A DNA stretch of 64,000 nucleotides from Clostridium sp. DL-VIII (GTDB lineage: Bacteria > Bacillota > Clostridia > Clostridiales > Clostridiaceae): assembly GCF_000230835.1 (NCBI RefSeq), contig NZ_CM001240.1:1744501-1808500 (forward strand), written 5' to 3'. Position numbers and translations under genes: made by a program. Below, in pieces: positions 12,569 through 56,399 of the stretch; the first letter of the stretch is position 1; each line of letters opens with the position of its first letter. The notes below the pieces were generated by a model. That model had not been told where the DNA came from. It did no database searches and saw only the letters and a list, made by a program, of their open reading frames with translations.

Positions 12569-12631
12569 GTCACAAGAAGTTTACACCCTATGTATTGCAG
12601 ATGACAGGTTTTGTTAAGAAAGTTTTCAATT

Positions 12632-12765
12632 AGTTAAGAGTTAAAAATTATAAGTTAAGAGCTTGAATGAAGAAAAGCTGCTAGCTTTTCAAAAATGACA
12701 ATTTTTAGAAATCCCTATAAGGATTTCATCCTCAACTCATGACTCTTAATCTTTAACTCTTAACT
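12632..12765. repeat. Two-hairpin palindromic repeat, copy 1
   Basis: Outer arms AGTTAAGAGTTAAA (12632-12645) and its exact complement (12752-12765) enclose two hairpins: GAAAAGCT/AGCTTTTC (12672-12679 with 12683-12690) and GAAATCC/GGATTTC (12708-12714 with 12721-12727). The layout matches the copies within the purine operon (43790, 47089, 48729) and after fabD (56260). Confidence 0.8.
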
Positions 12766-12780
12766 GTTTTAATCCTTAAT

Positions 12781-12817
12781 AAAAAATATACTCACATATA
12801 GTAAGTATATTTTTTTA
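12781..12817. terminator. Bidirectional terminator between cvfB and the gerA-type gene
   Basis: AAAAAATATACT (12781-12792) pairs with AGTATATTTTTT (12804-12815) and ends in a T-tract on the plus strand and an A/T tract on the minus strand. It lies between convergent genes. Confidence 0.75.
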
Positions 12818-14532: not shown

Positions 14533-16377
14533 ATGTGTGGTATTGCTGGACTTGTAAATTTCAAAGAAAATATAGTACAAGATAAAGGTATTTTGGAAAA
14601 AATGATAAAAACCTTGGAGAAAAGAGGACCAGACGCTAAAGGTTATTATATTTCTCCTAATGTTTTATTAGGACATAGAAGATTGATTGTAGTTGATCCA
14701 GAGGGTGGAATACAGCCAATGACTAAAACATTTCAAGGGAAGAAATATACATTAGTTTATAATGGTGAGCTATATAATACAGAGGATTTAAGAAAAGAAT
14801 TAAAAAAAGAGGGATTTGCTTTTGATTCTTATTCTGATACTGAAGTGTTACTTACATCATACATCTGCTGGGGAAAAGAATGTATTAATAAATTGATTGG
14901 TATTTTTGCCTTTGGTATATTTGATGAGGATAGAAAAGAAGTATTTTTAGCTAGAGATCAAATGGGTGTTAAGCCTCTATTTTATACTATAAATAATAAT
15001 ACTCTTGTTTTTGGGTCGGAAATAAAGACTATTTTAGCAGATCCAAGAATAAAAAGAGAAGTTGATATAGAGGGGTTAACTGAAATATTTGGACTTGGAC
15101 CAGCAACTATTCCGGGAAGCGGAGTATATAAGAATATTAAAGAAGTGGCACCTGCAAATTGTCTTTTGATTTCAGGTGATAATAGTGTAAAAAAATGGGA
15201 ATACTGGAGCGTTAAAGCAGAGGAATGCACAGAAACAGCAGAAGAGGCTATAGAGCATACAAGAGAATTATTAATAGATGCTATAAATAGACAATTAGTA
15301 GGAGATGTACCGCTTTGTACATTTTTATCTGGAGGCTTGGATTCATCTGCTATTTCAGCAATTGCAGGAAAAGAATTTAAGAGGCAAGGCAAAAAATTAG
15401 CAACTTACTCGATAGATTATGAAGATAATGATAAATATTTTAAGTCATCATTATTTCAACCTACTTCAGATGAAGTTTATGCAGAGATGATGGCTAAGTT
15501 TATTGGGAGTGATCATAGAAAAGTAGTTTTAAACCATTTAGATTTGGCACTAGCATTAAAAGAAGCAGTGATATCAAGGGACTTACCTGGAATGGCAGAT
15601 GTAGATTCCTCTTTATTGCTATTTTGCAAAGAGATACGCAAGGATTTTGTAGTCGGCCTTTCGGGTGAGTGTGCTGATGAAATCTTTGGCGGATATCCAT
15701 GGTTTACTAGAGATGAAATGTTTTATTTAGATACTTTCCCATGGGCAAGGTTTGTTAATGATAGAAAGGCTATAGTAAATAAAGATTTAAAGGGAATGAA
15801 ATTAGAAGAATTGGTTAGAACTCAATATGAAAAATCATTAAGTAAAGTGCCTCATCTTGATAATGAGAGTAAAAGAGATTATAGAATGAAAGAAATATCT
15901 TATTTAAATTTAAAATGGTTTATGGTAAATCTTCTTAATAGAAAAGATAGAGTCAGCATGAGAAATAGTTTAGAGGTAAGAGTTCCATTTGCAGATATAA
16001 GATTAGTTGAATATGCTTTTAATTTGCCAGCAGAGATAAAATTATATAAAGGTAGAGAAAAAGGCTTACTCAGAGCTGCACTTGAAGGAATACTTCCTGA
16101 AGAAATCGTATATAGAAAAAAGAGTCCATATCCGAAGACTCATAATCCAGTTTATACAGATATAGTATGTAAAATGATAGCAGATATTTTAGATAAAAAA
16201 TCTTCACCAATCCATGATATTATTGATGAAAAGGTAGTTAGAGAAATAATTGAAACTAGAGGGGATTCTTATAAGGTTCCATGGTATGGCCAACTAATGA
16301 CAGGGCCACAATTACTAGCATATTTAGTTCAGGTAAATATTTGGCTTGAAGAGTATAATGTAAATTTGTTAATTTAG
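14533..16377 (+). CDS. asnB: Asparagine synthetase, glutamine-hydrolysing
   Basis: Converts aspartate, glutamine and ATP to asparagine. The protein is 614 residues, the usual length for the AsnB type of Firmicutes. The N-terminal class II glutaminase starts MCGIAGLVNF, so Cys2 becomes the catalytic N-terminal nucleophile after removal of Met. The C-terminal ATP-pyrophosphatase domain carries the PP-loop SGGLDSS at residues 266-272. The start follows AGAAGGTG with normal spacing. A structured RNA-like element begins on its stop codon and may serve as its 3' end. The upstream gap shows no T-box. Confidence 0.95.
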   Translation: MCGIAGLVNFKENIVQDKGILEKMIKTLEKRGPDAKGYYISPNVLLGHRRLIVVDPEGGIQPMTKTFQGKKYTLVYNGELYNTEDLRKELKKEGFAFDSYSDTEVLLTSYICWGKECINKLIGIFAFGIFDEDRKEVFLARDQMGVKPLFYTINNNTLVFGSEIKTILADPRIKREVDIEGLTEIFGLGPATIPGSGVYKNIKEVAPANCLLISGDNSVKKWEYWSVKAEECTETAEEAIEHTRELLIDAINRQLVGDVPLCTFLSGGLDSSAISAIAGKEFKRQGKKLATYSIDYEDNDKYFKSSLFQPTSDEVYAEMMAKFIGSDHRKVVLNHLDLALALKEAVISRDLPGMADVDSSLLLFCKEIRKDFVVGLSGECADEIFGGYPWFTRDEMFYLDTFPWARFVNDRKAIVNKDLKGMKLEELVRTQYEKSLSKVPHLDNESKRDYRMKEISYLNLKWFMVNLLNRKDRVSMRNSLEVRVPFADIRLVEYAFNLPAEIKLYKGREKGLLRAALEGILPEEIVYRKKSPYPKTHNPVYTDIVCKMIADILDKKSSPIHDIIDEKVVREIIETRGDSYKVPWYGQLMTGPQLLAYLVQVNIWLEEYNVNLLI

Positions 16378-16525
16378 GCACATGAAAATAGATAACAAGT
16401 CCAAGACTGCCATGAATATTTTTCATCAGACAAGGAAGCAAAGTGCCATCATAGTGGGCTATTATGGAATTTTGCTGACATAGCATGATGGAAAATAGGC
16501 TGGTAGATGGACTTGTTATTTATTT
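16376..16525 (+). ncRNA. Candidate structured RNA or non-autonomous element, copy A
   Basis: About 150 bases that align, in opposite orientation, with 18433-18592. A 12-bp closing stem pairs 16392-16403 with 16508-16519 and runs into a T-rich tract. An inner hairpin pairs ATGAA (16412-16416) with TTCAT (16422-16426), and a second pairs CCATCAT (about 16446) with ATGATGG (about 16485). The unpaired blocks ACAAGGAAG, CATAGTGGG, TTTGCTGACA and AAAATAGGC are shared by both copies. Stem sequences differ between the copies but still pair. It starts with AGGCACATGAAA on the asnB stop codon. I do not recognise the class. Confidence 0.55.
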
Positions 16526-16579
16526 AATTTAATCATAGCATAAGCGTAAGTTTAAAATTGTTTATTTATAGCTACACTT

Positions 16580-16885
16580 CTAATTGTTGTAGTTGAATTT
16601 TATAGAAATTTCTTTGATTTCACCTTTGGAATTTTTTCGTATTGTAAATTGTTTAATATCCTTAAAATCATTCTCTAATTGATAAGTTAATTCTGTAATA
16701 GTAGCTTTAGCTTTTTTAGTTAAACCACCATCTTGCACAACCTCAAATCTTGTTTTTCTACAAGTTGTCTCATCATTTTTGTCATCAATAATTACATAAT
16801 ATTCTGGTGCTTCTTCAATAATTACATATTCTTTGTTTAGAGTTAAAGTTGAACAAAGGTTATTATCGATACATTTTACTATCAT
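16580..16885 (-). CDS. Hypothetical protein, about 100 residues
   Basis: A 101-residue protein with no signal peptide or membrane segment. It begins MIVKCIDNN and has a beta-rich N-terminal half with LTLNKEYVIIEE and YYVIIDDKND, a pattern like small SH3-like clostridial proteins of unknown function, then KTRFEVV and a charged C-terminal half. AGGAGG precedes the ATG with ideal spacing, which makes it a real gene. It converges on asnB, with the structured element between them. No function can be assigned. Confidence 0.65.
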   Translation of the reverse strand: MIVKCIDNNLCSTLTLNKEYVIIEEAPEYYVIIDDKNDETTCRKTRFEVVQDGGLTKKAKATITELTYQLENDFKDIKQFTIRKNSKGEIKEISIKFNYNN

Positions 16886-17161
16886 ATTTATTACCTCCTA
16901 AAATCCCATTTATAAGATAAATTTTAGTATATATAGTTATTTCTTTCAACAGTATTTGGAAAGATAAAAAAACTTTGGTAATATTCATAAAAAAGTATAC
17001 ATTAAATAGTTCAATATTATGATTAAATATTGGGTAGAGAAAAAAACGGTGTTTTGGTATAATTATATAAATGTATAAGATAATTGCTTAGAATGTTTCT
17101 ATACGTTACATTTCTTGTATAAATGTTAATATACATCAAATTAAGAAGGGATTGAATATGT

Positions 17162-17581
17162 ATGGAGATTGGTAGGGTAAGAAGAGGAGCTGTAACTTCT
17201 GAAAGAAAGGTTGTTTCGGAAAAGAAAGACTTCTCAAGAAGTTTTAATCAAGAAAGACATAGGCAGTCAGAAGAGCAGCTTAACAAGATGATAGGTGATA
17301 TCAAAAAAAGAGGAAATAAGCTCGTTGTAACTAAGACCTATGTAGATGTTATTATGTATAAGAAAATGATAAAAGAATATTTAGAATCTATACTAAAATT
17401 TATGTATGAAACAAAAAAAGATATAAGTTTTTGGCAGACTCAATATTTTATAACTGTTGACACTGTTGATGAAAAGTTAGAAGAATTAACTAATACTCTT
17501 CTTTCTGATGAAAAGGAAAATATAAATATTGCATCAACGATAGATGAGATTCAAGGAATGATTGTAGATATATATAGGTAG
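17162..17581 (+). CDS. YaaR family protein (DUF327)
   Basis: A 139-residue soluble, mostly helical protein of the YaaR family. The C-terminal half, with VDEKLEELTNTLLSDEKENINIAS and IDEIQGMIVDIYR, carries the family signature, and the first 45 residues are a basic, disordered tail. YaaR is conserved in Firmicutes, often near DNA replication and repair genes, but its role is not established. No such neighbours occur here. AAGAAGGG lies 11 bases before the ATG. No terminator is visible downstream. Confidence 0.8.
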   Translation: MEIGRVRRGAVTSERKVVSEKKDFSRSFNQERHRQSEEQLNKMIGDIKKRGNKLVVTKTYVDVIMYKKMIKEYLESILKFMYETKKDISFWQTQYFITVDTVDEKLEELTNTLLSDEKENINIASTIDEIQGMIVDIYR

Positions 17582-17735
17582 TATAAAGTAAAAGGTTCGT
17601 ACATATTTTATATAAAGTAATTTATTGGATGTGTCAAACATACCACTAGAAAATGCAAATCTAAAATAGAAGATTTTGATAAATAGTTTCTGGTAAGGAG
17701 TCAATTCCAAAATGGCGGGTATAAGGATTTAAGAG

Positions 17736-17812
17736 AAAAGAGATATTTCTATATCAGGAAAAGTTTTTATGTAAAATGCCATGTTAAAGGTAAAGGATGG
17801 GAAGTAGTCTAG
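17736..17812 (+). pseudogene. Possible remnant of a ChW-repeat or similar surface-protein gene
   Basis: Two frames give adjoining protein-like pieces: RDISISGKVF from about 17739 in one frame and FYVKCHVKGKGWEVV followed by a stop (17765-17812) in the next. Joined by one frameshift they resemble the start of a clostridial ChW-type repeat, which has a V..HV.G.GW core. There is no start codon or binding site. It is a weak call from a short match. Confidence 0.25.
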
Positions 17813-17823
17813 ATTTAGATTTA

Positions 17824-18258
17824 TTACGAAATTAACCTATTTATATAATCTAAATCTAAACTATTATCAATAATTTTGTATTCTTTATTGAAGTTGTCAT
17901 AGTTATTAATAATATTAATGTACTCTTTACCTTGTATAATAATCTCAGTAGTAACCTTGCTTTCATCATAAATGTAAATATGAATAGAACCTTTTGTTCT
18001 ATTTACAGTACTACCATAATACCGAACTAATTTTATGTTAGAAATATTATATAAAATTTCATTGATTTTGTCCTTATCTTTAATTGATCTATCTTGTCTA
18101 GAAGATGTACTTCTAATCTCAATTTTCTCAATATTCTCTTTCTGATAGTTACTAAATAAAAGTTTACCTATATCTTCATTCTTAGGATATAAATAATATC
18201 CTAAAATACATATTGATAAAATAGTAATTAAAAATATTACAAACCTTTTTTTCGTCAT
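17824..18258 (-). CDS. Hypothetical membrane-anchored or exported protein
   Basis: A 144-residue protein with an N-terminal KKR stretch and one hydrophobic helix (about residues 6-22) that acts as a membrane anchor or signal. The rest is outside the membrane and alternates charged and beta-strand-like segments (IEKIEIRSTSSRQD, GSIHIYIYDESKVTTEIIIQG, YKIIDNSLDLDYINRLI). This looks like the small exported clostridial proteins of the DUF5301 kind, but I am not certain of the family. AGGAGAA lies upstream of the ATG. No close neighbour suggests a function. Confidence 0.65.
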   Translation of the reverse strand: MTKKRFVIFLITILSICILGYYLYPKNEDIGKLLFSNYQKENIEKIEIRSTSSRQDRSIKDKDKINEILYNISNIKLVRYYGSTVNRTKGSIHIYIYDESKVTTEIIIQGKEYINIINNYDNFNKEYKIIDNSLDLDYINRLIS

Positions 18259-18432
18259 AATAAATAATTCTCCTACATAAATAATTTTAATTATAACATA
18301 AATTTTGTAAAATTCTAATTATAGAGAATAAGTCATAAATTTCATTATAATAATATATTACTATAAGGTGAATTTGGTATTTTTATTCTATTGTGATATT
18401 ATAATTGATAGTGAATATTAATTAATAGTATT

Positions 18433-18592
18433 AGGCACAATCAAAAAAATAACAGACCAGTATGCTTGCCTATTTTGTGTCATACTGTGTCAGCAAATTT
18501 TACTAATAGACCCACTATGAGCAGAATTTACTTCCTTGCCTGACGCAAAATATGCGTCGCATCTTTGGTCTATTATTTTCTTTCATGTGCCT
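18433..18592 (-). ncRNA. Candidate structured RNA or non-autonomous element, copy B
   Basis: The reverse-oriented partner of the element at 16376-16525. It is bounded by AGGCACA (18433-18439) and TGTGCCT (18586-18592), a 7-bp terminal inverted repeat. The closing stem pairs the complement of 18567-18577 with that of 18448-18458 over 11 positions including one G-T wobble. The inner hairpin is GACGCA/TGCGTC (18542-18547 with 18553-18558), a different sequence from copy A at the same position. On the minus strand the end runs into TTATTTTTTTG, which looks like a terminator. It lies upstream of the minus-strand hypothetical gene at 17824-18258. Confidence 0.55.
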
Positions 18593-18606
18593 TATTTTAA
18601 TAAAGT

Positions 18607-18704
18607 AATTTATATGAATTTTATTATCATATTGCTAATTCAGATTATAAGTCTTTAGTTATTTATTTAAATGTAATAGCAATTTATAATTGAAATTTAT
18701 ATAA
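18607..18704. repeat. 98-bp palindromic element, copy 1
   Basis: It matches 28789-28886 with about nine mismatches by eye and no gap. Both copies can fold into one long hairpin, because TATATnAATTT...TATTGCTA at one end is complementary to TAATAGCAAT...AAATTTATATAA at the other. There is no coding potential. It lies directly next to structured element copy B and upstream of the ABC importer operon. It looks like a MITE-type insertion. Confidence 0.75.
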
Positions 18705-18762
18705 CTACTTGTTAGTTATTATTAATTTAATTAATATTTTTTTGGAAAGGGGACTCTTAAAA

Positions 18763-19764
18763 ATGAAAAAGAAATTATCGTTATTTCTAGTGGGAATACT
18801 ATCAGTAGCAACACTTGTTGGATGTGGAAATAGTAATTCTACTCAAGGAGAATCAACAAAAAAGGTGGTAGAAACTAAGGATGTTAATTTCGTAACGCCA
18901 GATGGACTTACAGCTATGGCAGTAGCTAAGCTTGTAAAAGAAAAACCGGAAGTTAAAGCTGGATATAATATAAACTATACAATAGAACAAAATTCTGATA
19001 GTTTGGTTACAAGTGTTATGAAGAATGAGCCAGATGTAGCAATAGTTCCGTCTAATGTGGCAGCTACTGTATATAATAAAAATCAAGAATATAAGATAGC
19101 TGGAACAATAGGTTTTGGGTCGTTATATATAGGTACTACAAATGAGAATCAAAATATAAATGATTTAAAAGGGAAAGAAATTTATAACATAGGAAAGGGA
19201 TTAACTCCTGATATAATTGCAAGAACTGTTCTTAAGGACAAAGGAATTGATGCAGATAAAGATGTTAATTTTAGTTATGTAAATTCAGTAAATGAATTAG
19301 CTCCAATAATTTTGTCTGGAAAAACACAATATGCAGTGATACCAGAGCCAGCATTATCTACTGTGCAAAGCAAAAATGATAAGTTTAATATAATGCTGGA
19401 CTTAAATGAAGAGTGGAAAAAGATAAATAACTCTGAATATGGATATCCACAATCAACAATAATAGTTAAAAAGGAATTATATGATGAGGACAAAGAATTT
19501 GTAAATAATCTTTTAAATCAAGTTGAAGAATCAGAAAAATGGGCAAATAGTAATAAGGAAGCTCTAGGAGATTATTGTGAAGAAATCGGAGTATCAGCTC
19601 AAAAGCCAACAGTAATAAAAGCTGTTGATAGGGCAAATTTGAAATACGTTGATATTAAAGACAGCATCAAAGATTATAAAACATATTTTGAAAAGTTAAA
19701 TGCATTTGATCCAAAAACAATAGGAGGAAAAGTGCCAGATGATGAAATATTCATGGGAAAGTAA
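18763..19764 (+). CDS. ABC transporter substrate-binding lipoprotein, NitT/TauT (NMT1/SsuA-like) type
   Basis: A 333-residue extracytoplasmic binding protein. A lipoprotein signal peptide ends in LVGC with the lipidated Cys at residue 21. The mature part is a periplasmic-binding fold of the kind used for nitrate, sulfonates, taurine or the thiamin precursor HMP, with PDGLTAMAVAKL near the start, VAIVPSN near 90, and YAVIPEPALSTV near 190. The start follows GGAAAGGGG. It begins a three-gene importer operon with permease and ATPase. No riboswitch (for example TPP) was seen upstream, so the ligand remains open. Confidence 0.88.
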   Translation: MKKKLSLFLVGILSVATLVGCGNSNSTQGESTKKVVETKDVNFVTPDGLTAMAVAKLVKEKPEVKAGYNINYTIEQNSDSLVTSVMKNEPDVAIVPSNVAATVYNKNQEYKIAGTIGFGSLYIGTTNENQNINDLKGKEIYNIGKGLTPDIIARTVLKDKGIDADKDVNFSYVNSVNELAPIILSGKTQYAVIPEPALSTVQSKNDKFNIMLDLNEEWKKINNSEYGYPQSTIIVKKELYDEDKEFVNNLLNQVEESEKWANSNKEALGDYCEEIGVSAQKPTVIKAVDRANLKYVDIKDSIKDYKTYFEKLNAFDPKTIGGKVPDDEIFMGK

Positions 19765-28775: not shown

Positions 28776-28788
28776 TGATCATAAAAAC

Positions 28789-28886
28789 AAATTATATAAA
28801 TTTTATTATCATATTGCTAATTTAAATTATAAGTCTCTAGCTATATATTTAGATGTAATAGCAATTTATCATTGAAATTTATATAA
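28789..28886. repeat. 98-bp palindromic element, copy 2
   Basis: The second copy of the element at 18607-18704, co-linear with no indel. It lies in the 3' region of the SPFH gene and folds into one long hairpin. Confidence 0.75.
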
Positions 28887-28970
28887 AAACTTAGTTTATC
28901 TCTTGTATTTTTAGCTTATCCACATAATTATCAGTTACGAATCATGAGTTAAAGATGAAGATTCAAGAAG

Positions 28971-43082: not shown

Positions 43083-43789
43083 TGGAAAAATTAGAAATGA
43101 TGTATGAAGGAAAAGCAAAGAAGATTTACGCTACAGATAAGGCAGACGAAGTAATTATATATTACAAAGATGATGCAACAGCATTTAATGGAGAAAAGAA
43201 AGGACAAATTGAAGATAAAGGTGTTATGAACAATGAGATAACAGCAATTCTTTTTGAACTTTTAGAGAAAAGAGGAGTAAAAACTCATTTTATTAAGAAA
43301 CTAAATGATAGAGAACAATTATGTAAAAAGGTTGAAATAGTACCACTTGAAGTAATAGTAAGAAATGTAGCAGCAGGAAGTATGGCTAAAAGATTAGGTC
43401 TTGAAGAAGGATATAAACTTAAGACTACAGTATTTGAGTTCTCTTATAAGGATGATGAATTAGGAGATCCACTTATAAATAGTTACCATGCAGTAGCAAT
43501 TGGAGCAGCAACTTTTGAAGAAATAGATGTAATTTTAAAAATGACAGCTACAATAAATGATGTATTAAAAGAAGTATTCGCAGCACAAAATATTAATTTA
43601 ATTGATTTTAAAATTGAATTTGGTAGATGCAGCGATGGTACAATAGTTTTAGCAGATGAAATTTCACCAGATACTTGCAGATTCTGGGATGCTACAACAG
43701 GAGAAAAATTAGATAAGGATAGATTTAGAAGAGACTTAGGTAATGTTAAAGATGCTTATATTGAAATCTTAAAGAGAATTTCAAAATAA
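43082..43789 (+). CDS. purC: SAICAR synthetase
   Basis: Joins CAIR with aspartate using ATP to give SAICAR. The 235-residue protein has the family start [10 protein letters not shown] near residues 7-16, the ATP-site sequence KDDATAFNG, and [13 protein letters not shown] near 96-108. The ATG lies inside the purE stop (TAATG), so translation is coupled. A two-hairpin repeat begins right after its stop codon, between purC and purF. Confidence 0.96.
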
Positions 43790-43920
43790 TTGACAATTGA
43801 TAATTAACAATGAACAATTAAGGAACAAAATCCTAAATAGATTTTGAAAATATATGTATTTTAGAAATCCCTTTGGGATTTCATCTTTAATTGTCAATTA
43901 TCAATTTTTCATTGTCAATT
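43790..43920. repeat. Two-hairpin palindromic repeat, copy 2 (purC-purF)
   Basis: Arms TTGACAATTGATAATTAACA... and its near-complement ending ...ATTGTCAATT enclose two hairpins. The first has AAAATC/GATTTT near 43826-43842. The second has AAATCCC (43864-43870) with GGGATTT (43874-43880). It fills the whole purC-purF gap apart from the purF binding site. Confidence 0.85.
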
Positions 43921-43946
43921 AAAAAAGTTATGAAAGGATTGTATGA

Positions 43947-47088: not shown

Positions 47089-47196
47089 GTTAAAGTTTAT
47101 AGTTAAGGGTTGCAGTTGAAAAAAACCATAATTTAAGGAAACTCCGTCAGGAGTTTTATCTACAACTGTTAACTGTTAACTGTTAATTGTTAACTG
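47089..47196. repeat. Two-hairpin palindromic repeat, copy 3 (purN-purH), shortened
   Basis: The 5' arm AGTTAAAGTTTATAGTTAAG and the 3' arm, built from four copies of GTTAA(C/T)TGTTAAC-type units, surround a single hairpin AAACTCC (47139-47145) with GGAGTTT (47150-47156). The second hairpin is missing. The stem sequence differs from copy 2 but pairs perfectly. Confidence 0.82.
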
Positions 47197-47212
47197 AAGA
47201 AAGCGGTGTTTT

Positions 47213-48721
47213 ATGAAAAAAAGAGCTTTAATAAGTGTATTTGATAAAGATGGAGTTTTAGAGTTTGCTAAATTTTTAGCAGCAAAAGATGTTGAAATTG
47301 TATCAACAGGTGGGACTTATAAATATCTTAAGGAAAATGGTTTGGATGTAATTGAAATTAATGAAGTTACTAATTTCCCAGAGATGCTAGATGGAAGAGT
47401 AAAAACTCTTCATCCATTAGTTCATGCTGGAATTTTAGCTATAAGAGATAATGAAAAACATATGGATACTTTAAAGGAAAGAAATATTCATACAATAGAT
47501 TATGTAGTTGTAAATCTTTATCCATTCTTTGAAAAAGTTAAAGAAGACTTGGAGTTTGAAGAGAAGGTTGAATTTATAGATATTGGAGGTCCTACAATGC
47601 TTAGAGCAGCTGCTAAGAACTTCCAAGATGTTGTAGTAATCTCAGATAAAAACGACTATAAAGTTGTAATGGAAGAAATTGAAGCAAGCGGAGAAGCATC
47701 TTTAAAGACAAAGAAAAAGTTAGCAGGTAAAGTATTTAATCTTATGAGTGCTTATGATGGTGCTATTTCAAACTTCTTATTAGCTGATGATGAGGAAGAA
47801 TATCCAGAATATCTTTCGGTTTCATATAAGAAGATGCAAGGACTTAGATACGGAGAAAATTCACATCAGACTGCAGCAGTTTATTCATCAACAATGCTTG
47901 ATGGGGCTATGAATACATTTGAAACATTAAATGGTAAAGAATTATCTTACAATAACTTTAAAGACTGTGATATTGCTTGGAAATGTGCTAATGAATTTGA
48001 TGAACCAGCATGCTGCGCATTAAAACATAATACGCCTTGTGGAGTTGCAGTTGGAGACGACGCATATGAAGCTTACATGAAAGCTTATGAAGTGGACCCA
48101 ACTTCTATATTTGGGGGAATCGTTGCATTTAATAGGAAAGTAGATAAGAAGACTGCTGAAGAAATGGTTAAGATCTTCTTAGAGGTTATAGCAGCACCAG
48201 AATATGATGAAGATGCTTTGGAAGTATTAAAGACTAAAAAGAATTTAAGAGTTCTTAAATTTCATAATAAGCCAAAAGCAGATAGATATATGGTTACAGT
48301 TGATGGAGCAATGCTTGTTCAAGAAGAGGATAATAAATTAATTGAAGAGATCAAAGTTGTAACTGAAAAGAAACCAACTGATGAGGAAATGAAAGATTTA
48401 TTATTTGGAATGAAAGTAGTTAAATATGTTAAATCAAATGCTATTGTTGTTGCTCATAATGGAATAGCTTTAGGAATTGGTGGAGGTCAAGTTAATAGAA
48501 TTTGGCCAACAGAAGATGCGTTAAAGAGAGGCAAAGGAGCTACAATTCTTGCATCGGATGCGTTCTTCCCATTTAGAGATGTTGTGGATCAAGCAGCTAA
48601 AAACGGAATTAAAGCTATAATTCAGCCAGGTGGATCCATGAGAGATCAAGAATCAATAGATGCATGTAATGAACATGGAATAGCAATGGTATTCACAGGA
48701 TATAGACACTTTAAACACTAA
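47213..48721 (+). CDS. purH: Bifunctional AICAR transformylase / IMP cyclohydrolase
   Basis: The last two steps to IMP. In the 502-residue protein, residues 1-150 are the IMP cyclohydrolase (MGS-like) domain, with [13 protein letters not shown] and STGGTYKYL; the rest is the AICAR formyltransferase domain, with [14 protein letters not shown] near 217, [12 protein letters not shown] near 260 and SDAFFPFRD near 440. The start has only a weak site (AAAGCGG), consistent with control by the repeat just upstream. It is followed by another repeat and purD. Confidence 0.96.
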
Positions 48722-48728
48722 TTCAATC

Positions 48729-48863
48729 AGTTAACAGTTTACAGTGCACAGTTAGCAGTTAAGGAACAAACGCCAAAGGCGTTTGGAAATTAAATAATAT
48801 TTTAAAAGATTCTGTAGGAATCTTATCCTCAACTGTTAATTGTTAACTGCTAACTATTAACTG
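48729..48863. repeat. Two-hairpin palindromic repeat, copy 4 (purH-purD)
   Basis: Arms of CAGTTAACAG-type units surround two hairpins: AAACGCC (48768-48774) with GGCGTTT (48778-48784), and AAGATTC (48806-48812) with GAATCTT (48818-48824). The final segment TTATCCTCAACTGTTAA is almost identical to that in copies 1 and 3. Confidence 0.85.
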
Positions 48864-48883
48864 AATAAATTTGGAGGTATTGT

Positions 48884-56273: not shown

Positions 56274-56384
56274 CTATTTACAGTTGAAGGAAGAACACAG
56301 TGTCGGAGTTCTAAAATACATTTTTCAAATTCCTTTGGTATTTGTTCCGAAACTGTGAACTAATCATTGTAAACTGTAAACTGT
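56260..56384. repeat. Two-hairpin palindromic repeat, copy 5 (fabD-fabG)
   Basis: The 5' arm CAGTTAACAGTTAAC overlaps the last four codons and stop of fabD. The 3' arm is CTGTGAACTAATCATTGTAAACTG. Inside are a GAAC/GTTC hairpin (near 56293) and an AAATTCC/TGGTATTT hairpin (near 56327). It leaves only a short space before the fabG binding site. Confidence 0.75.
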
Positions 56385-56399
56385 CGAAAGGGGATTTTT

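Follow-up and report, generated by a model that had tools for sequence, protein, structure and literature searches.

Two inverted, look-alike segments, one beside an asparagine synthase gene and the other ahead of an ABC transporter operon, raise the question of whether a structured RNA or a mobile DNA element has been copied into this part of the Clostridium sp. DL-VIII genome. A sequence-only reading of the window (the whole 64,000-nucleotide stretch that was analyzed) had described two inverted copies with common blocks and with stems that stay paired while their bases change, all of which are present in the sequence, and had proposed a new small RNA, a 3'-end element, or a non-autonomous mobile element. 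We conclude that the segments, copies A and B, very probably belong to a single family of non-autonomous DNA transposons (MITEs) in the Clostridiaceae.

Two copies of one element in the window

The features of the locus, including the terminal inverted repeats (TIRs) of both copies, are as follows.

14533..16377, plus strand: asnB-like asparagine synthase (PF00733, E value of 1.8e-86)
16374..16376: target-site triplet TTA left of copy A
16377..16534, plus strand: 158-bp element copy A, with asnB on one side and a small convergent gene on the other; left TIR intact, right TIR decayed
16377..16402, plus strand: left TIR of copy A (GGCACATGAAAATAGATAACAAGTCC)
16509..16534, minus strand: right TIR of copy A, outer end decayed
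18431..18433: left-hand TTA of the target-site duplication at copy B, read directly
18434..18591, minus strand: 158-bp element copy B, of a second subfamily, flanked by two divergent genes and ahead of the ABC transporter operon
18434..18458, plus strand: 3' TIR of copy B (GGCACAATCAAAAAAATAACAGACC on the plus strand)
18567..18591, minus strand: 5' TIR of copy B in element orientation (GGCACATGAAAGAAAATAATAGACC)
18592..18594: right-hand TTA of the target-site duplication at copy B, read directly
18763..19764, plus strand: substrate-binding protein of an ABC transporter (PF12974, PF09084); copy B lies between this gene and its divergent neighbor

The copies lie where they had been placed (16376-16525 and 18433-18592), with boundaries now refined to 16377-16534 on the plus strand and 18434-18591 on the minus strand. 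T-rich tracts had been noticed at the ends of both copies; they are real, and they are the TIR itself, which reads AAATAAATAACAAG on the opposite strand. A repeat finder links A and B through two inverted matches (72% over 74 nt and 74% over 61 nt), and a covariance model scores them at 152.3 bits (copy A, positions 1760877-1761034 of its own genome, G000) and 162.2 bits (copy B, 1762934-1763091, minus strand). The first base of copy A is also the last base of the asnB TAG stop codon, and its right-hand triplet, at 16535-16537, has decayed to ATA. A second repeat family adjoins copy B, and a terminator scan of 16300-18800 gave a single match, a local stem within copy B.

A large family with common ends and duplicated TWA triplets

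Within its own genome, copy A has 58 matches at an E value of <=0.001, a count far beyond chance even though some of the matches are fragments or the opposite strand of a palindrome already counted, and the TIR pattern allowing up to 3 mismatches is matched 160 times, compared with 0 for the reversed pattern. The covariance-model search that the sequence-only reading had proposed yields 115 matches at 86 distinct places in the same genome, amounting to 12.7 kb, a lower bound, because scoring covered 150 of the 7200 first-look candidates. Full copies are imperfect palindromes of 157 to 160 bp that end in GGCACA-NNN-AAATAAATAACAAGTC, with TIRs of about 25 bp, and this standard unit is too short to hold a transposase gene.

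The flanks of 212 unique paired elements, collected in a scan that placed no requirement on the flanking bases, show TTA on both sides in 95 cases, TAA on both sides in 67, unlike TWA triplets in 14, and other sequences in 36. The same TTA or TAA thus stands on both sides of 162 of the 212, and where both flanks are TWA, 162 of 176 agree (p = 2e-33 against an even split). Lengths of 145 to 165 bp account for 112 of the 212 elements, while mini forms (about 51 to 93 bp) and enlarged forms (about 187 to 391 bp), many of the latter with extra hairpin arms, have the same ends as the standard unit (the table of enlarged copies has 33 rows, in which L100 and L011 are each two neighboring elements taken as one). 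Full-length copies are intergenic in 110 of 112 cases, the other 2 falling inside an open reading frame called by a simple ORF caller.

A single-strand hairpin and intergenic placement would also suit an IS200/IS605-type element (single-stranded DNA, subterminal hairpins) or a REP/RAYT-type palindrome, but the true TIRs and the duplicated target triplet make this highly improbable; IS200/IS605 and REP elements are not known to produce a target duplication.

Distribution and element-free sites

The terminal repeat, at <=1 mismatch, is carried by 21 of the 68 genomes of the genus, at 1 to 195 matches per carrier; G012, G022, G056, and G065 are rich in copies, at 118 to 195 matches. Across the order, an exact match occurs in 37 of 225 genomes and 9 of 56 genera, and none was found in the 19 genomes outside the family. 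A blastn search of plasmids and phages with one full copy gave no match; the terminal pattern occurs in two viral contigs, with both ends in each.

At site A, the close relative G013 matches at the asnB end and at the convergent neighbor but lacks element A, and none of the 10 relatives read there has an element at this position. G066 carries a lone family end about 95 to 119 bp beyond the asnB end, which indicates that the asnB neighborhood has been hit more than once. At site B, G013 aligns with the 62 bases left of the element through the TTA and then continues without it (left-flank score of 87, compared with 51 for the best of 200 shuffles); the joined flanks score 132, compared with 108 for the best of 50 shuffles, an alignment that does not place the insertion site. 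The right-hand junction of B cannot be aligned with G013 because of the second repeat family beside it.

TIRs, a target duplication of fixed length, and many short, dispersed, intergenic copies without a transposase gene are thus joined by sites that are empty in a relative (of two sites examined, A is empty in G013, and B is absent from G013 where the left flank matches). The mobile element, one option among several in the sequence-only reading, is well supported by copy number, TWA duplications, TIRs, intergenic placement, and the element-free relative.

A hairpin spanning the whole element

The main fold is one long hairpin that spans the whole element. Pair counts were made on an alignment (A1) of copy A with 60 of 79 unique full-length copies, the other 19 having been removed by hand beforehand to thin out similar or short ones; the scan that gave the 79 required matching triplets and missed copy A because its right triplet has decayed. 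Over 48 pairs, 94.9% of cells are paired and 27 of the 48 pairs show two-sided changes; 0 of 500 shuffles are as high on all five measures, and slid versions of the fold are far lower. The closing stem recognized earlier (CAAGTCC/GGACTTG in copy A) proves to belong to this hairpin, with 94.4% of cells paired and two-sided changes in 5 of 7 pairs. The proposed inner hairpin (ATGAA/TTCAT in A, GACGCA/TGCGTC in B) may form as a local alternative, for which shuffling gives mixed support: 90.1% of its cells are paired, and on three of five measures it exceeds all 500 shuffles, but on two it falls within them (pairs with two-sided changes, 153 of 500; pair types, 210 of 500), and one of its five pairs is gapped in 12 of 61 alignment rows. 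The long hairpin with its conserved internal loop is therefore preserved across subfamilies, both halves changing together.

Such covariation is what would be expected of a structured noncoding RNA (a small RNA or a cis-acting 3' or 5' element) whose fold is selected at host loci, the copies being paralogs of its gene. One orientation gives the better fold in 107 of 112 copies (99 of 112 with DNA parameters), and on a tree of 113 copies, changes from Watson-Crick pairs lead to G-U more often than to A-C on internal branches (35 versus 14, p = 0.004) and on terminal branches (102 versus 75, p = 0.05), with the greatest excess in the apical helix (18 versus 5 internal, 42 versus 19 terminal). 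Cell counts for the forward fold run the same way (G-U 221 versus A-C 47; 119 versus 43 over the 44 pairs that are >=70% Watson-Crick). Pairs chosen by folding one strand, however, favor G-U on that strand, and the 22 pairs common to the folds of both strands show no bias (G-U 19 versus A-C 20); over the 35 pairs that are >=80% Watson-Crick, internal branches give 16 versus 7 (p = 0.09) and terminal branches 60 versus 55. Both strands fold strongly (mean z scores of -8.4 and -7.0 in a sample of 40 of the 112 copies) because the element is a DNA palindrome, and of the difference of -11.4 kcal/mol in folding energy between strands, about -5.8 is also seen in shuffled sequences.

Gene context argues in the same direction. 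Relative to co-directional flanking genes, elements in the own genome run with them 11 times and against them 4 times (27 copies), compared with 11 and 30 times at other loci (85 copies), a disagreement that led us to set orientation aside as an indicator of RNA function. That no known RNA class had been recognized agrees with Rfam, in which neither element scores above a curated cutoff or matches at permissive thresholds; the single below-cutoff match, a CRISPR repeat at 18110-18146, lies outside the elements. With site A empty in a relative and target duplications present, RNA genes seem an improbable source of the copies, and the case for one strand, as RNA, being the selected form is only suggestive. 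The earlier claim of structural selection holds insofar as pairing is kept through base changes over the whole-element hairpin; its further wording, RNA and "not simple repeat homology," was too strong.

The paired changes might instead come from arm-to-arm copying within a DNA palindrome, through hairpin-templated repair or replication, and not from selection on the fold. Copying of this kind explains the covariation and is compatible with a MITE. Compared with its own reverse strand, the imperfect palindrome matches at about 72%. A module of 41 to 43 bp is confined to the left arm in L101 and to the right arm in L062, L131, L262, L278, and L288, and L093 and L109 have it in both, a distribution expected from inter-arm copying or from loss in one arm. 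Two-sided changes on the same branch are not, however, significantly clustered in neighboring pairs, which copied tracts would produce (4 adjacent versus 2.5 expected among 51 changes, p = 0.21, at low power, as 9 branches have two or more), and the conserved unpaired loop and the G-U pairs persist uncorrected. We regard arm copying as a possible but less likely origin of the paired changes.

The search for a helper transposase

No pair of matching ends surrounds the transposase gene in any of the 50 stretches around the 70 DDE_Tnp_1 (PF01609) matches; L171 has one loose TWA+GGCA pair, with unlike ends. Two further families were each searched in eight genomes, of which PF13586 matched in one and PF13359 in none. 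Neither the 40 terminal-repeat places viewed in the own genome nor the other loci, apart from the far pairs in L095 and L110, showed a transposase within a long paired element. Several candidates were considered and rejected. L157 and L168 each have a single, unpartnered end beside a transposase; in L168, an IS begins inside a copy of the element, and the same IS occurs in L162, L174, and L179. Terminal-repeat pairs 1340 bp (L143) and 1940 bp (L115) apart enclose ORFs that, judged by eye, are not transposases, and their ends are parts of distinct short elements; the far pairs of L199 and L033, considered as a composite or autonomous element, had the same outcome by eye. In the part searched, then, no autonomous IS with the same ends was found. 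MITE families without a known autonomous partner occur, so the missing partner limits what can be said of the origin of this family, not of its kind.

For a MITE of this kind, a DDE transposase encoded elsewhere would bind the terminal repeats and, acting in trans by a cut-and-paste mechanism, carry the unit to TWA sites. The hairpin or palindrome may be retained because the mobile lineage needs it, either for recognition or because a self-contained RNA hairpin would be harmless in transcripts, and copies would decay after insertion, as copy A appears to have begun to do. In a more speculative and rather unlikely variant, the single-stranded fold, a 160-nt hairpin with a nearly invariant internal loop (CAGGCAAGGAG/GACGCAG) and interchangeable side arms, would itself be kept by selection for spread, for example as RNA or single-stranded DNA recognized at mobilization, and the element would be moved by machinery unlike the IS5/Harbinger transposases, the customary makers of TWA duplications.

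Significance and comparison with known elements

We searched the literature on Clostridium repeats and MITEs, bacterial MITEs, small RNAs, and the terminal sequence without finding a description of the family, an earlier account of which may exist elsewhere; Clostridium is not named in the main text of two reviews (PMC2229807, PMC10969869). The kind of element, a MITE, is already known, and what is added is a large palindromic family in Clostridia for which we found no description. The family can alter gene ends, as here, where the final base of the asnB stop codon comes from copy A, and may alter operon leaders. Its copies, subfamilies, and size variants form a natural data set on why bacterial MITEs are palindromes and on how paired changes arise, by selection on the fold or by arm copying. 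They also carry a caution for searches for RNA motifs, in that covariation together with dispersed copies may mean a DNA element. Known elements compare as follows.

(i) Tourist/PIF-Harbinger MITEs and their bacterial counterpart, IS5 (the IS1031 and IS427 groups), have a 3-bp TWA target duplication and a TIR that begins with G. The present family shares both the 3-bp TWA duplication and the initial G, but no IS5/Harbinger-type transposase gene with the same ends was found in 50 PF01609 stretches or in the eight genomes used for each family search.

(ii) RUP of Streptococcus pneumoniae is tied to an IS630-type transposase. Compared by description, it is likewise a small dispersed Firmicute repeat, with a 9-bp TIR and a target duplication (PMC2229807).

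(iii) Correia/NEMIS of Neisseria is a MITE with a 24-bp TIR, and it resembles the present family in its target duplication, strong RNA stem-loop, and size variants (PMC2229807); the host differs, and the likeness is one of description.

(iv) YPAL/RU-2 of Yersinia is likewise a palindromic intergenic element, of about 168 bp, but its inverted repeats are internal and its duplications span 3 to 26 bp (PMC2229807), whereas the present family has terminal repeats and a TWA duplication.

(v) ERIC (IRU/RU-1) is an element of 127 bp in enterobacteria and Vibrionaceae, with a 7-bp TIR and TA at its termini (PMC2229807, PMC10969869). The present family is set apart by description, with its 157 to 160 bp, its TIR of about 25 bp beginning at GGCACA, its TWA triplet, and its place in the Clostridiaceae. 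ERIC, whose transcripts form long stem-loops, is like it a small intergenic mobile repeat with TIRs, a target duplication, and tens to hundreds of copies (PMC2229807, PMC10969869).

Two copies of a palindromic transposable element

The window, which sits in a single-contig genome of 6.48 Mb whose relatives are Clostridium, contains two inverted copies of a palindromic MITE family with a unit of about 160 bp and terminal inverted repeats starting GGCACA. This family is a transposable element. Its window features are as follows.

16377-16534, plus strand: element copy A (covariance model, 152 bits)
18434-18591, minus strand: element copy B (covariance model, 162 bits)
18431-18433 and 18592-18594: TTA triplets bordering copy B on both sides

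Copy A has TTA at its left and a decayed right end, and its first base is the final base of the TAG stop of an asparagine synthase gene; copy B is placed between two divergent genes, 5' of an ABC transporter operon. The blocks listed in the sequence-only reading, together with stems whose bases are altered but still paired, are found in both copies. A second small dispersed repeat (about 95 bp, AT-rich, with inverted ends TTTATATAAATTT/AAATTTATATAAA) directly adjoins copy B at 18602-18710, recurs at 28784-28892, and has 18 matches in the genome at 83-100% identity, some of them partial. A third AT-rich repeat set, of the TTAACTGTTAATTGTTAACTG type, occurs in direct and inverted orientation at 12611-12786, 43787-43927, 47149-47211, 48713-48869, and 56322-56389.

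Copy number and host range

Used as a query, copy A has 58 matches in its own genome, and a search there for its terminal repeat, tolerating at most 3 mismatches, gives 160 hits, versus 0 for the reversed pattern. The covariance-model search proposed in the sequence-only reading, with a model built from 61 copies, yielded at least 115 matches at 86 or more distinct places, covering at least 12.7 kb (lower bounds, since scoring was limited to 150 of the 7200 first-look candidates). Within the genus, the terminal pattern (at most 1 mismatch) occurs in 21 of 68 genomes, with 1 to 195 hits each; across the order, an exact match to the pattern turns up in 37 of 225 genomes, representing 9 of 56 genera, and in none of the 19 genomes outside the family. 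Carriers among the matches listed include C. beijerinckii HUN142, C. uliginosum, C. chromiireducens, C. tagluense, C. neonatale, and Oceanirhabdus seepicola.

A blastn search of one full copy against plasmid and phage collections returned no match. Two IMG/VR viral contigs (L150 and L151, possibly identical or related sequences) have both element ends, 159-160 bp apart, and given these contigs, phages may carry the element from host to host. Six fetched contigs of Clostridium sp. LS (L035, L043, L052, L073, L082, and L091) terminate within the element, making it a probable cause of breaks when genomes like these are assembled from short reads.

Target duplication and empty sites

A scan over all collected loci, with no condition on flanks, recovered 212 unique elements with both ends, flanked by TTA/TTA (95), TAA/TAA (67), differing TWA (TTA or TAA) triplets (14), or other sequence (36). 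Where TWA is present at both borders (176 elements), the two triplets are identical in 162 cases (P = 2e-33 for departure from an even split), which marks a target duplication of 3 bp. A standard element is 157-160 bp long, and 112 of the 212 fall within 145-165 bp; its ends recur in mini forms of some 51-93 bp and in large forms reaching 391 bp. By a simple ORF caller, 2 of the 112 full copies lie within an ORF.

In one compared genome, G013, whose asnB end is 82% identical, this gene end and its convergent neighbor are both present but copy A is absent. Ten relatives were read at this site, and all lack an element at the corresponding place, though in G066 a lone family end lies about 95-119 bp beyond its gene end. 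At site B, G013 matches the 62-base left flank ending in TTA with a score of 87 (200 shuffles reach 51 at best), and no element follows the matched flank there. The right flank of B does not align to G013 because the second repeat adjoins B in its own genome, and the joined flanks score 132 (best of 50 shuffles, 108) in an alignment not placed at the site. Matched TWA triplets, shared ends, and the empty site A in G013 bear out a mobile element, one of the options raised from sequence alone.

Search for the mobilizing enzyme

TWA duplication is a mark of IS5/Harbinger types, and in combination with the G-initial inverted repeats it suggests that a DDE transposase would move the element in trans. 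No helper with the element's ends was found in 50 stretches around 70 PF01609 matches of eight genomes, around 40 own-genome terminal-repeat places, or in the other scanned loci. In family searches of eight genomes each, PF13359 matched in none and PF13586 in one. Orphan MITEs are common in bacteria. An insertion sequence with a PF01609 transposase in G022 (locus L168, 997-2584) was rejected as helper, being inserted inside an element copy; it starts about 60 bp from that copy's left end and recurs in L162, L174, and L179.

Hairpin structure and the basis of covariation

The whole unit folds into one long hairpin, to which the closing stem described previously belongs; the inner hairpin described with it is a possible local alternative fold, with mixed support. 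Across 61 aligned copies and 48 pairs, 94.9% of cells are paired (87.4% in shuffles) and 27 pairs show two-sided changes (17.6 in shuffles), and 0 of 500 shuffles reach the observed value on any of five measures. When partners are slid 1-3 columns as a control, paired cells fall to 37-48%. The internal loop formed by CAGGCAAGGAG and, on the facing side, GACGCAG varies hardly at all between subfamilies. In enlarged copies, the largest insertion falls at the 3' side of this loop (consensus 102-110) in 17 of 33 rows, and near the loop it is often a hairpin arm.

One or more extra arms (e.g., CCAAATCTATGATTTGG), in some cases several in tandem, lie 3' of the conserved loop in L022, L068, L084, L094, L126, L183, L216, L217, L261, and L285. 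A module of 41-43 bp, several instances of which have the core GCAGCATAGCTGC, occurs at mirror positions in the left arm, right arm, or both arms of enlarged copies L093, L101, L109, L062, L131, L262, L278, and L288.

The sequence-only reading attributed the covariation to selection on RNA structure. Pairing is indeed kept, as the 27 two-sided pairs attest, but in a DNA palindrome such as this element, covariation alone does not prove RNA function. Strand asymmetry is suggestive of selection on the fold of a single strand, RNA or ssDNA: in 107 of 112 copies the A orientation gives the stronger fold, although about half of the strand energy difference recurs in shuffles. In the forward fold, G-U cells outnumber A-C cells 221 to 47, and 119 to 43 in the 44 pairs that are at least 70% Watson-Crick; however, pairs picked by folding one strand favor G-U on that strand, and the counts are 19 and 20 in the 22 pairs that the folds of the two strands share. 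On the tree, Watson-Crick pairs change to G-U more often than to A-C on internal (35 versus 14; P = 0.004) and terminal (102 versus 75; P = 0.05) branches, the G-U excess lying mostly in the apical helix, but in the 35 pairs at least 80% Watson-Crick the differences shrink to 16 versus 7 (P = 0.09) and 60 versus 55, respectively. Copy orientation relative to flanking genes is inconsistent, which also counts against a single selected strand. Arm-to-arm copying within the palindrome is a live alternative source of the paired changes, favored by the occurrence of the 41-43 bp module in either arm alone or in both, although clustering of two-sided substitutions is not significant. We read these patterns as a hairpin preserved in the moving lineage, with copies decaying once inserted and with DNA, ssDNA, and RNA each a possible selected form.

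Relationship to known repeat families

The literature searched yielded no description of this Clostridium family. ERIC, Correia/NEMIS, RUP, RPE, and YPAL are described as short mobile repeats (about 100-200 bp) that lie between genes and give transcripts with long stem-loops (PMC2229807, PMC10969869). Compared by these descriptions, the Clostridium element is another repeat of this kind, distinct in its ends, target, and hosts; ERIC and YPAL are each set apart from it by listed size, end, or host features, as those descriptions give them, that the Clostridium element does not share.
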